A stretch of DNA of 64,000 nucleotides from Sinomonas notoginsengisoli (GTDB lineage: Bacteria > Actinomycetota > Actinomycetes > Actinomycetales > Micrococcaceae): NCBI RefSeq assembly GCF_021554725.1, contig NZ_JAIZDP010000001.1, forward strand, positions 1 to 64,000, in the 5' to 3' direction. The notes beneath the pieces were generated by a model that was not told where the DNA came from, made no database searches, and worked only from the letters and a program-made list of their open reading frames with translations. Shown here in pieces: positions 57,686 through 61,906 of this stretch. Position numbers and translations under genes: made by a program. Numbering within the stretch: position 1 is the first letter of the stretch; every line of letters starts with the position of its first letter.

Positions 57686-57704
57686 AGCAGCCGAAGTAGA
57701 GCTC
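57686..57704 (-). repeat. 19-bp direct repeat, copy A (glnA 3'-end fragment)
   Basis: AGCAGCCGAAGTAGAGCTC is identical to 60484-60502. On the minus strand it codes ELYFGC in frame and is followed by TGA, but the preceding sequence (NTLK) does not continue as glutamine synthetase. Confidence 0.9.
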
Positions 57705-57792
57705 CTTGAGGGTATTTGGCTCGGGAGCGGAGTCGCTGAGACGCAGGGCACCTCCCCGAGACCAAGGGAGACGGCGCGACGCGGAGTAGTCT

Positions 57793-58761
57793 TCAGACGC
57801 CTTCCCTGCTGAGCGCCATTCGGGCTGCGCCTGAGGCTGCCGTTTCCGGGCCGAGTTGGACCACGTCCACCTTGCATCCATCCTGTAGATCGCTGAAGCT
57901 GTAGTCCGCCACGGCAGCCTCAAATTCGGCCTGAAACAATTCGTTAGCCGAGGGCCAGTCAACCTCGGAGAAATAGGGTCCAGGGCCTCCTACCAAGATT
58001 CTTTCCGGATTCAGGAGATTCACGAGAACGGCTAAGCCTTGCCCGAAATTTCTTCCCGCGCGTCGAAAAGCCGTCTGCGCGACAACAACTCCTCCCTCCA
58101 CCAGCGATGCGGCTTCTGCCATGGTGGAGACGCCGTGCCTACCTCCCCAATTAATTTCTCGTGCAAGAGTCTCAACCGACAGAAGGGCTTCTAGGCATCC
58201 TCTCGACCCGCAACGACATCTAGCTCCGGCTGGTTGTATCGTGACATGTCCGAATTCGCCAGCTCCACCGGACGATCCCCGCACAATCTCGCCACCCGCC
58301 ACCAAGGCGCTTCCAAGGCCGTGGCCCTCCTCGGCGATGTAAATCACGACGAGGTCGTTGACGCCTGCGAGACCTTCCGTGGTCAGCAGATCGGAGACCA
58401 TACAGTTCACGTCGTTATCGACATAGTTTGGTAATCCAGTGCGATCTTGGAGCTGCGAGCTCACGTCAACGTTCTTCCAATGCCTCCCGTGGGGTGCCAG
58501 GTCCGGTGCATACCTAACGAGGCCCTTCGCATGTTCAACATGGCCCCCCACTGATACGCCGATTGCGGAAGGGCTGTCGTCGAACGAGGAGGTCACGTGG
58601 TCCGCGATCATATCGACAATCTGGTCCGGAGTCTGAAGATCGCCGGGAATCTTCAGTCGTTCTTTAGCCTTCAGAAGACCGTCAGGCATGACAGAACTGA
58701 CGTAAAGGTATTCATGCGTTACGGCATACCCGACGGCGAGGGTGTCACGCTTCAATGTCAT
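57793..58761 (-). CDS. ROK-family protein lacking the first phosphate motif
   Basis: The fold is ROK: N-D-x-N at residues 116-119 (catalytic Asp 117), GLGSALV, GEFGH at 168-172 and the zinc motif CRCGSRGCLE at 182-191. However, the N-terminal DxGGTK motif that binds ATP phosphates is absent, and there is no helix-turn-helix, so it is neither a standard kinase nor a standard repressor. It could be a sugar-binding sensor or a degenerate kinase. The ATG at 58761 overlaps the upstream RelA/SpoT-like gene by 17 bases; a TTG at 58755 with GGAAGG 6 bases before it is an alternative start. Base composition is unlike the host genes. Confidence 0.82.
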   Translation of the reverse strand: MTLKRDTLAVGYAVTHEYLYVSSVMPDGLLKAKERLKIPGDLQTPDQIVDMIADHVTSSFDDSPSAIGVSVGGHVEHAKGLVRYAPDLAPHGRHWKNVDVSSQLQDRTGLPNYVDNDVNCMVSDLLTTEGLAGVNDLVVIYIAEEGHGLGSALVAGGEIVRGSSGGAGEFGHVTIQPAGARCRCGSRGCLEALLSVETLAREINWGGRHGVSTMAEAASLVEGGVVVAQTAFRRAGRNFGQGLAVLVNLLNPERILVGGPGPYFSEVDWPSANELFQAEFEAAVADYSFSDLQDGCKVDVVQLGPETAASGAARMALSREGV

Positions 58762-59584
58762 CCTTCCCGTCGCTGCTAATTTGTGTGTCTCGTACCGCCA
58801 TAATCATGCCCTCCACCCAATGCACGACGTGACCAAGGTAATACACGCCAAACTCCGCGCCCCTGTAATCCCATTGCCAAGGCCCTCGAACCGGGTCCAT
58901 CGTTTCACGGGACCGTTCAAAATGACGGTGAGTCAGGTTGTCGACCATCTCCTGCAAGGCTGTTGTCACTTGAATCTCGACTTCGCTCGTACGTAGTTCA
59001 GGGCCGACGTAATCCAGATCGAGCCCCTTGAATTCTTGGGGAACCCTAACGTGCATCGCATAGTAGCCCGTATCCTTAGCCTTGGTTTCCACCTGCACCT
59101 GTAGGCCGAGCGATTTAGCGTGCCTTTCAATTCGTTCTACGAGGAACGAAACGCCATCTAGGTAGTTGACGGTGAATCTGGTCCGGATAATGTCCCAGAA
59201 CTTTTCAAACCATGTGTCGGGGAGGACCCATCCTGAATTTGGGGCATCCGGCCAATTTGCGTTGTTTTTCACGTTTTCACGCCAGGTCTTGTTGAGAAAG
59301 GACTTCCAAGGCTTCAGATTGAGCGGTGCCGGGTTGGTGCCCGAGAAGAGTCTGTGATGGTTCTCCTGTGCGTAGTCTTGCTCCCACATGGGCAAGCTGC
59401 GTTGGACGCCGAGCCAAAACTCGGACTGCTCGAACTCGGATTTGAGGTCCGCTTGATGATGAAGGAAACGCCCCGGCCTCAACTCCCGCTTGTCGCCATG
59501 CCATGTCTGGTCAAGCCAATCATCGTAGTTTTCGAAACTGGGCCGATCTACTCGCTCGACGTCAGCAATGCGAACAACCTTCAT
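58745..59584 (-). CDS. RelA/SpoT-domain protein (alarmone-synthetase-like)
   Basis: The C-terminal half fits the RelA/SpoT nucleotidyltransferase domain: DIIRTRF at residues 131-137 (place of the D-x-x-G-x-R motif, with Gly replaced by Arg), GYYAMH at 173-178 (GYRSxH motif) and EVEIQVTTALQE at 201-212, followed by LTHRHFE. The N-terminal 125 residues and the WQWDY...LGHVVHWVEGM C-terminus are not from RelA/Rel. There is no HD hydrolase domain, so it could be a small alarmone synthetase or a toxic synthetase (toxSAS) type. GAGG precedes the ATG by 6 bases. It forms an overlapping operon with the ROK-like gene. Confidence 0.78.
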   Translation of the reverse strand: MKVVRIADVERVDRPSFENYDDWLDQTWHGDKRELRPGRFLHHQADLKSEFEQSEFWLGVQRSLPMWEQDYAQENHHRLFSGTNPAPLNLKPWKSFLNKTWRENVKNNANWPDAPNSGWVLPDTWFEKFWDIIRTRFTVNYLDGVSFLVERIERHAKSLGLQVQVETKAKDTGYYAMHVRVPQEFKGLDLDYVGPELRTSEVEIQVTTALQEMVDNLTHRHFERSRETMDPVRGPWQWDYRGAEFGVYYLGHVVHWVEGMIMAVRDTQISSDGKDDIEA

Positions 59585-60071
59585 TGTTTCCTCGCCCCTC
59601 TAGATCGCAGATTTGCCTAATCGAACGGGATTCTCGCGAGATGATCGCGTGATATAGGACCAGAATTTGAGTGCCTGAACATACATGGACTCGCGGTCGT
59701 GCCGGCAAGATCTCCCCCGCGGGGCCGAAGTGATTACAGTGTGCAGACTAGGAGCCCGAGAGGAATATGACAAGGCCCGGGTCACGAGGGAACTGCACGA
59801 CGCGAGCTCGCTCGGGCTCGGCTTACCAGAACGGTGGCGGTCGTAAGTGAGGCCTTTGCACGAGTTCAACGCTTAAGGAATGAGGGTTTGGGCCTAATGA
59901 GCGGTCCCGAAGAGATTGGTTCGAACGTCCTTCCGAGGAGGGCCTTGGAGCGTTCCTTCACCGGTCAGGGGTGGTGATACTCCTTCGATCACCCCCCAGG
60001 TGTCCTAGGCGTTCACAACGGCGCCTTGACACCACGCGGGGTCCACTGGCAGTTGACCAGCCATATGCCAG
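59585..60071. other. low-coding stretch inside the island
   Basis: This is the upstream region of the RelA/SpoT-like gene. It holds the palindrome TCTCGCGAGA (59632-59641), a TATATC hexamer on the minus strand near 59655, a short open frame (59685-59846) and an inverted repeat GGTGAT/ATCACC near 59970-59994. No recognisable gene remnant was identified. Confidence 0.5.
59685..59846 (+). CDS. possible 53-residue protein
   Basis: The short frame starts at an ATG and ends with TAA. It is charged (REEYDKARVTRELHDASS near the middle) and divergent from the RelA/SpoT-like gene. No ribosome-binding site or family was recognised. It could be a small partner of the operon or a fragment of a larger lost gene. 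Confidence 0.25.
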   Translation: MDSRSCRQDLPRGAEVITVCRLGAREEYDKARVTRELHDASSLGLGLPERWRS

Positions 60072-60377
60072 TCAATCCGTATGCGCTTCATGACGATCGG
60101 TGGTCTGACAGCCCTTCCAGTCAGGGGCGCATCTCGTCTTGAACCGCTCCGACTCGGTGCCCGGGTGCTCGTCGCGTCGCATCGGGGCGTTGCACCCCTC
60201 GGCAGCCCGGTGCTTCTCATATTCGGTGATCTCCGGCCGCAAGGGCGTTAGCCAGACAATCAGGCCGCCCTCACCCGTCATCGAGCTCAGGGGTGCTAGA
60301 GCACCGCCTTCCGAAGGCCCCTGATCAGTGATCTCTGCCGTCCTGTGATGGATCATTTGGATGGGGTGGATCAGCAT
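60072..60377 (-). CDS. possible hypothetical protein of 101 residues
   Basis: The frame from an ATG at 60377 gives a hydrophilic protein with RPEITEYEKHRAAEGCNAP and later Cys residues. Codon use looks partly coding, but there is no ribosome-binding site and no recognised family. A second frame continuing at 60005-60098 (MKRIRIDWHMAGQLPVDPAW) overlaps its end, so a frameshifted remnant is possible. Confidence 0.3.
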   Translation of the reverse strand: MLIHPIQMIHHRTAEITDQGPSEGGALAPLSSMTGEGGLIVWLTPLRPEITEYEKHRAAEGCNAPMRRDEHPGTESERFKTRCAPDWKGCQTTDRHEAHTD

Positions 60378-60395
60378 ACGTGACCCGACACAGAA

Positions 60396-60445
60396 GAGTC
60401 CGCGCGAGCAGCCGTCCAGTCGGTTCTGGCTGCTCGCGCGGACTC
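60396..60445 (-). terminator. glnA1 terminator hairpin
   Basis: A perfect 18-bp stem (60396-60413 with 60428-60445) and a 14-base loop lie 36 bases after the glnA1 stop. On the minus strand it is followed by CTTCTGTGT. Confidence 0.8.
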
Positions 60446-60481
60446 TGTGCGGACTGAGGCCGCTACTTCCCTGCAATCCCC

Positions 60482-61906
60482 CTAGCAGCCGAAGTAGAGC
60501 TCGAACTCGTAGGGGTTCGGGCGCAGCGAGAGCGGCATGATCTCCTTCTCACGCTTGTATGCGACCCAGGTGTCAATCAGGTCCTGTGTGAAGACGCCGC
60601 CAGCCTGGAGGAACTCGTTGTCCGCCTCGAGGGCCTCAAGGGCTTCCTCGAGCGACCCCGGGGCCTTCGGGATGTCGCGGGCCTCCTCGACGGGGAGCTC
60701 GTAGAGGTCCTTGTCGATCGGGGCCGGCGGCTCGATGCGGTTGCGGATGCCGTCGATCCCGGCCATGAGCTGGGCCGCGAACGCGAGGTACGGGTTGGAC
60801 GAGGGGTCCGGGGCGCGGAACTCGATGCGCTTGGCCTTCGGGTTCGAGCCGGTGATCGGGATACGGATTCCGGCGGAGCGGTTGCCCTGCGAGTACACCA
60901 TGTTGACAGGGGCCTCGAAGCCCTTGACGAGGCGCTTATAGGAGTTCACGGTCGGGTTCGTGAACGCGAGGACGGCCGAGGCGTGCTTGAGGAGGCCACC
61001 GATGTACCAGCGGGCGAGGTCGGAGAGGTTCGCGTAGCCCTTCTCGTCGTAGAAGAGCGGCTCCCCGCCGTTCCACAGCGACTGGTGGCAGTGCATGCCC
61101 GAGCCGTTGTCGCCGAAGACCGGCTTCGGCATGAAGGTCACGGCCTTGCCCCACTCGAGCGCCGTGTTCTTGATGATGTACTTGAACTTCTGCAGGTCGT
61201 CCGCTGCGCGCACGAGGGTCGAGAATCGGTAGTTGATCTCGGCCTGGCCCGCGGCGCCGACCTCGTGGTGGGAACGCTCGACCTCAAGGCCGGCCGCGTC
61301 CAGGGCGAGGCACATTGCGTCGCGGAGGTCGGCCTGGTGGTCGACCGGGGCCACGGGGAAGTAGCCGCTCTTGAACGGGGTCTTGTTGCCGAGGTTCCCG
61401 CCCTCCTCCTCGCGGCCCGAGTTCCACGGCGCCTCGATCGAGTCGACCTTGTAGAAGGATCCCTGCGGCGAGGACTCGAACTGGACGTTGTCGAAGACGA
61501 AGAACTCGGCCTCGGGGGCGAAGAACGCCGTGTCAGCGATGCCGGTGGAGGCCAGATACGCCTCGGCACGCTCTGCGACGCCGCGGGGATCGCGGTGATA
61601 CGGCTCGCCGGTGCGCGGGTTCACGATGGAGAAGTTCAGGGCGAGGGTCTTCTCGACGCGGAACGGGTCGAGGAAGGCGGTCGTGACGTCGGGGATGAGC
61701 TGCATGTCCGACTCGGCGATGCCCTGGAAGCCGCGGATCGACGAGCCGTCGAAGAGTTGGCCGTTGACGAAGAAGTCTTCGTCAACCGTCTTGGCAGGGA
61801 TGTTGAAGTGCTGCTGGACGCCAGGCAGGTCAGTGAAGCGGATATCGACGAACTTGACGTCTTCGTCCTTGATGTATTTGAGGACCTCGTCCGCAGACTT
61901 GAACAT
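60482..61906 (-). CDS. glnA: glutamine synthetase type I
   Basis: GlnA1 makes glutamine from glutamate, ammonia and ATP as a dodecamer. It has FDGSSIRGF, the [14 protein letters not shown] segment, [26 protein letters not shown] and NRSAGIRIP. The adenylylation tyrosine is in DKDLYELP at residue 402, the target expected for GlnE upstream. Length is 474 residues. The ATG has AAAGGAGT upstream. The 3' end carries the 19-bp repeat that bounds the island. A GlnR-type box lies in the promoter region, so both transcription and activity are probably nitrogen-controlled. Confidence 0.97.
60484..60502 (-). repeat. 19-bp direct repeat, copy B (intact glnA 3' end)
   Basis: This copy is the genuine end of glnA1 (coding ELYFGC, stop TAG) and is identical to 57686-57704. 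Confidence 0.9.

Follow-up and report, generated by a model that had tools for sequence, protein, structure and literature searches.

The window analysed here was a 64,000-nt stretch of Sinomonas notoginsengisoli (assembly GCF_021554725.1, contig NZ_JAIZDP010000001.1, positions 1-64,000, forward strand). Beside glnA it contains a pair of minus-strand genes coding for P0001, a protein with the fold of small alarmone synthetases (SAS), and P0002, a ROK-domain protein (Table 1). An earlier note on this DNA had described two overlapping genes of low G+C content at this place. Both points were confirmed: the coordinates and the 17-base overlap are correct, the two frames are intact in the list of open reading frames (ORFs), and the G+C content is 53.6% for P0001 and 57.6% for P0002 versus 67.7% in the window. 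The overlap would be expected to couple translation of the two genes. An Rfam scan of the region gave no match and a scan for promoter-like sites gave none. One terminator-like site was returned, a count below the shuffled-sequence level, in a scan that excludes the glnA hairpin (14-base loop).

Table 1. The gene pair, the insertion that carries it and associated repeats (positions in the window).
Feature	Position	Strand	Basis
P0001; SAS fold (RelA/SpoT synthetase superfamily), 279 aa, no hydrolase domain; putative effector	58745..59584	-	ORF, family profile, hhalign, fold, residues
P0002; ROK domain, 322 aa, no N-terminal helix-turn-helix (HTH), no DxGGT; putative partner (neutraliser or sensor)	57793..58761	-	PF00480, ROK alignment, PDB relatives, residues
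17-base overlap of the P0001 and P0002 genes	58745..58761	-	ORF coordinates
Insertion of 2,798 bp including one repeat copy; not seen in 14/14 congeners	57705..60502		congener alignment (matches >80 bases), profile search
Left copy of 19-bp direct repeat; old glnA 3' end, TGA stop just beside	57686..57704		repeat search, congener comparison
Right copy of 19-bp direct repeat; present glnA 3' end, then element-borne TAG stop	60484..60502		repeat search, congener comparison
Perfect 19-bp inverted repeat within the element beside glnA; probable glnA terminator	60395..60446	-	likeness to congener hairpins

The pair sits in a 2,798-bp insertion bounded by an exact 19-bp direct repeat, AGCAGCCGAAGTAGAGCTC, which starts at 57686 and 60484 and occurs nowhere else in the window. 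Among 500 first-order Markov controls of the region, none had an exact repeat of 17 bases or longer. The repeat is the 3' end of glnA, and a match to the end of glnA is present in all 15 genomes of the genus that were searched, the genome of the window included. Seven of the 14 congeners have an empty site, in which the sequence to the left of 57704 abuts the glnA end and the aligned blocks share 14-19 bases, equal to the repeat once; in the other seven the aligned blocks lie 0.3 to 3.8 kb apart with different DNA between them. With the empty site in seven congeners, and no SAS-like gene found by a profile search in any of the 14, we conclude that 2,798 bp were inserted. The direct repeats, which the earlier note had not mentioned, and the empty site support an integrative element and so an acquired island.

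A repeat together with a displaced stop codon is the look of integration by recombination at the 3' end of a gene. A search for the tyrosine integrase family (PF00589) gave three places in the genome, all of them outside the element; it did not extend to serine recombinases. P0001 and P0002 apart, no ORF in the element exceeds about 142 codons (stop to stop), and nothing was recognised by eye in the stop-to-stop translations of the 0.9 kb between P0001 and glnA. The element may have been mobilised in trans or may be a remnant of a larger one. Its hairpin resembles those downstream of glnA in congeners L094-L097. A similar small ORF was seen downstream of glnA in L096 (1104-1319; 71 aa) and L095 (947-1327; within a 126-aa frame). 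In congener L093 (4398-8242), 3.8 kb with other genes, named by eye as a GMC-type oxidoreductase and an AraC-like gene, occupies the same glnA 3' end. This end may be an insertion hot spot.

In P0001, the earlier note had recognised a RelA/SpoT synthetase domain and no HD hydrolase domain. The motifs on which it relied (DIIRTRF, GYYAMH and EVEIQVTTALQE) are present in the order claimed, and the domain was recovered by family-level rather than single-sequence searches. Searched singly, P0001 matched no family in Pfam, NCBIfam or PADLOC at E≤1, and an HD domain was considered absent on that ground. One PHROG without known function was matched at E 0.35, and a PDB sequence search with P0001 alone gave no match. 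A profile of six relatives matched SAS1 in the PDB at E 8.3e-6, profile-profile comparison (hhalign) with SAS gave E 1.4e-8, and fold comparison matched SAS for P0001 and also for its relative P0005. The closest solved structures are of the SAS1/RelQ and SAS2/RelP type, at 12-19% identity in the fold alignments. The cut-off of PF04607 (RelA_SpoT) was reached neither by P0001 nor by two relatives tested; the host genome has two PF04607 places, and P0001 is neither of them. These results support P0001 as a single-domain protein of the RelA/SpoT superfamily.

The residues of interest in P0001 are K91, S95, K99, D131, R136, G173, Y174, H178, E203, Q205 and H219. In the alignment of the six clade members, K91-x3-S95-x3-K99, D131, R134-T135, G173-Y174, H178, E203 and H219 are invariant, with the relatives 24-29% identical to P0001. 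From the alignment with SAS and the motif spacing, we assign these residues to the donor-site loop, to the Asp and Glu of metal type and to the Tyr of the G-loop. The role of the G-loop Tyr also appears in the consulted part of PMC9712102.

Eight controls were used for comparison: the host Rel, the second host SAS (L024), five SAS of the same order, and L102. The K-x3-S-x3-K spacing is found in three of them (host Rel, L024 and L102). The Arg of RxK, placed by motif spacing with gap-free alignment support from one control only, is kept in 8/8 controls and changed in 6/6 members (N89 in P0001, Val or Gln in the other five). Every control likewise has the Gly in DxxGx[RK] and a basic residue in ExQx[RK]T, and every member differs at both positions: Arg (R134) stands for the Gly, and the basic residue is replaced by T207 in P0001 and by Leu in the other five. 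P0001 alone retains the Gln of ExQ (Q205), which is Lys in the five relatives. The Arg of GYR (Y175 in P0001, His in five relatives) was dropped from the list of lost canonical residues; its absence says little, since just 5/8 controls carry it. In CapRel, according to the consulted part of PMC9712102, R79 and R116 flank the adenine; by alignment R79 falls at the lost Arg of RxK and R116 at R136, which is Lys in five relatives.

The changes in the RxK, DxxG and ExQ motifs suggest that base and acceptor contacts differ from those of ordinary SAS, and the catalytic core may be kept while these contacts differ. Three positions kept in 8/8 controls and changed throughout the clade, with Lys for the Gln of ExQ in five relatives, would also suit a pseudo-enzyme or another chemistry, whereby the SAS fold is kept, no alarmone is made, and the protein senses nucleotides or RNA or transfers another group. 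We consider this quite unlikely, as the Asp, Glu, Gly-Tyr, His and Lys/Ser/Lys are invariant in 6/6 members despite the low identity, which argues for an active site in use.

P0002 matched PF00480 (E 1.3e-35, 123.8 bits, cut-off 22.9) over residues 43-315 of 322. Pfam reported no second domain, and no pZFD or Tis1 model was run. The profile search that the earlier note had proposed for both proteins was positive for P0002, whereas P0001 alone was negative in Pfam and positive through the family profile and the fold. Among the matches listed for 100 genomes of the bacterial family, the relatives share 27-41% identity with P0002. The frames taken for the 11 ROK relatives examined span 399-738 aa, and in every one an HTH-like stretch, judged by eye, precedes the ROK part. 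P0002 begins within the ROK fold and lacks this N-terminal part. The description of P0002 as a ROK fold without DxGGT was right, because G11 and A13 stand where 10 of the 11 relatives keep the D-x-G of the ATP loop. Kept in P0002 are D115-N-D117-V-N119, GE169FGH172 and the Cys cluster C182, C184 and C189. The best PDB matches were the ROK-family transcriptional regulator Lmo0178 (1z05), a glucokinase and Mlc. On a plain reading of these residues, P0002 would be a ligand-binding ROK domain that is neither a kinase nor DNA-binding. It may serve as an antitoxin, a sensor or a co-effector; a neutralising or sensing function is suggested solely by its position and co-insertion with P0001.

Mlc and other ROK repressors act as regulators linked to sugars. 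P0002 is most closely related to ROK repressor-like proteins, and this, together with the retained sugar-site and zinc residues, would be consistent with a non-toxic, regulated alarmone enzyme, in which the ROK protein senses a sugar or sugar phosphate, tunes (p)ppGpp-like synthesis and couples carbon supply to the stringent response. In fold comparisons of P0001 and P0005 the fold is nearer to ordinary SAS than to toxic SAS (toxSAS), and the two other RelA_SpoT places in the host indicate that extra synthetases are tolerated; both points favour such an enzyme. It is nevertheless unlikely in our view, because the relatives of P0001 pair with DUF262, a defence-type domain, and the gene lies with a single partner on an inserted element not seen in 14 congeners.

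Relatives of P0001 were sought in searches by taxon, each of which includes the genome of the window and whose draws overlap. Relatives were found in 3/297 genomes in an order search, 1/396 in the phylum search with A1, 30/396 in the order search with the A2 profile (27 of them weak partial matches, E 2e-8 to 8e-4), 6/365 in the family search (four weak) and 3/394 in the class search (one weak). The 27 weak order matches were rejected as clade members; the seven of them inspected are all ordinary RelA/SpoT-type SAS (GYRAxH, ExQxKT). The five weak family and class matches were also rejected, L028 and L102 being the two inspected. Single-sequence searches found no plasmid or phage relative of P0001, and none of P0005 in plasmids. 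Scans of contig sets, which depend on short peptide patterns, gave 0 relatives of P0001 from 17 pattern stretches and 4 of A1 from 72 in genome contigs. In viral contigs there were no relatives of P0002 (0/4 stretches) or A2 (0/126 stretches), and three weak relatives of DUF262 among five stretches.

At the five other distinct loci (L004, L005, L007, L008 and L009; all actinobacterial), a DUF262/GmrSD_N-type gene, not a ROK gene, directly follows the SAS-like gene; the two genes overlap by 14 bases or by 1 base, or lie 1-2 bases apart. Three of these partners (the G108 part, M. barkeri and Pseudoclavibacter) have a confirmed Pfam GmrSD_N match. The Kineococcus partner is of DUF262 type by PADLOC, and that of A. 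agilis, where both genes look shortened, by sequence likeness alone. The PADLOC model PDC-M55C matched 3/3 partners tested (E 8e-49 to 6e-56); PADLOC had no model for two SAS-like relatives tested. No relative of P0002 was found in the DUF262-paired loci (best tblastn E 0.25, six loci), and PF03235 (DUF262) has no place in the genome of the window at E≤1. The neighbourhood survey thus found the ROK-paired form once, in the genome of the window only, and the recurrence of a ROK-RelA/SpoT pair, which the earlier note had set as a test, is not supported. The observations support a SAS-like clade with an exchangeable downstream partner, and there may be a broader ROK-paired group.

A single instance, a P0002 without the N-terminal part of its relatives, and an element without a tyrosine integrase would be expected if unrelated cargo genes overlapped by chance on a decaying element, the ROK protein being a truncated repressor unlinked to the SAS-like gene. 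That explanation has, in our judgement, little probability: the two reading frames, which overlap by 17 bases, are both intact, and a partner gene follows the SAS-like gene immediately in 6/6 loci, that of the window included.

At four of the five DUF262-paired loci some neighbours were searched with Pfam. One locus has a gene adjoining the pair that matches PDC-M11A (E 2e-171), and another has a MazG-like gene and a Schlafen-type helicase gene nearby; at two others the tested neighbours had no match, except for a more distant CoiA-type nuclease gene in one. No direct repeats like those of the window were found around four other loci examined. The SAS-like gene and its DUF262 gene are a candidate defence pair in their own right. 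DUF262 relatives numbered five records in phages and 164 in plasmids. Eight plasmid contexts were inspected by eye and from product names, and seven of the neighbouring proteins were searched in Pfam. In five, the DUF262 relative adjoins a putAbiC, HipA or DUF5677 gene or lies one to several genes from AAA_15. A SAS-like neighbour was recognised in none of the eight, so the SAS-DUF262 pair has been seen only in Actinomycetota. On a Klebsiella plasmid (L113, 1970-4563) a DUF262 gene akin to the SAS partners is overlapped by a gene of the putAbiC type. Several effector types may have DUF262 as a common partner.

Several known systems resemble the pair in part. The toxSAS (CapRel, FaRel2, FaRel and PhRel) share with it a single-domain SAS fold without hydrolase, an adjacent partner gene and a mobile-element setting. 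They differ in their antitoxins, which in the parts of the sources consulted are pZFD, Tis1-like or Panacea-linked, whereas here the partner is ROK and in the relatives DUF262-type; they also differ in the Arg of RxK, by alignment one of the two adenine-flanking arginines, which is missing in the P0001 clade. SAS1/RelQ and SAS2/RelP share the fold, the metal-type Asp and Glu, the Gly-Tyr of the G-loop and the Lys/Ser/Lys spacing, but P0001 has low identity to them, a longer N-terminal part, changed RxK, DxxG and ExQx[RK] motifs and no Pfam RelA_SpoT match. DUF262 occurs in GmrSD, BrxU, SspE, Menshen, Dazbog and PD-T4-2 (PMC10952713, in the part consulted). These DUF262/GmrSD_N defence systems share the partner type of five P0001 relatives, but no SAS-fold partner was found for them in the consulted parts of the literature searched. 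ROK repressors (Mlc, Lmo0178) and ROK sugar kinases share the ROK domain and the sugar and zinc motifs with P0002, which differs in lacking HTH and DxGGT and in following a SAS-like gene.

The ROK-RelA/SpoT pairing, which the earlier note did not know as a described system, was not found in the literature searched either: no paper joined toxSAS with 'ROK family', or 'RelA SpoT' with 'ROK family' and 'toxin-antitoxin'. No paper joined 'alarmone' with DUF262, none was found on PDC-M55, and the main text of the paper on a combinatorial toxin-antitoxin network mentions neither ROK nor DUF262 (PMC10440598). A SAS-fold effector with an adjacent partner is a known kind of arrangement; the P0001-P0002 pair is not a proven toxSAS module.

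Toxicity of toxSAS arises through pyrophosphorylation of the tRNA CCA end or (pp)pApp synthesis; neutralising domains of the pZFD type act at the donor site, and Tis1-like ones at the acceptor site (PMC11782079). In CapRel, release is brought about by a phage capsid protein (PMC9712102). This logic, a neutralised enzyme with phage-triggered release in CapRel, would fit a SAS-fold effector with an exchangeable control protein here. The likeliest explanation, to which we give an even chance, is that P0001 and P0002 form a two-gene module on a small integrated element, with P0001 a toxSAS-like effector and P0002 its neutralising or sensing partner. P0001 would probably use ATP as the donor of pyrophosphate, or of a related nucleotide group, with a nucleotide or the 3' ends of tRNA as acceptor, and growth would stop as a result. 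P0002, having lost DNA binding and the ATP motif and kept sugar-site and zinc-site residues, would restrain P0001 until a ligand or an infection-related signal at P0002 released it. Observed directly are the two genes, the SAS homology and fold, the ROK domain with its lost and kept motifs, the insertion with its empty site and the DUF262-type partner at five other loci; activity as an enzyme, toxicity, binding of the two proteins to each other, the signal and a part in defence are put forward by inference.

More tentatively, and on balance doubtful, the pair may belong to an undescribed class of two-gene immune modules, in which a divergent clade of SAS-fold effectors is under the control of exchangeable sensors: DUF262 NTPases in the other actinobacteria examined and here a repurposed, non-catalytic ROK sugar sensor, moved as a 2.8-kb integrase-less element at glnA. 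The pair is compact and testable, and shows cleanly how two genes can be carried as cargo at the 3' end of glnA. If the proposed module is real, P0001 and its relatives would add a clade of effectors with the alarmone-synthetase fold that escapes standard family models. DUF262 and ROK would then be partner types not named for toxSAS in the consulted parts of the literature searched, and the ROK partner would tie growth arrest to a sugar-type ligand.
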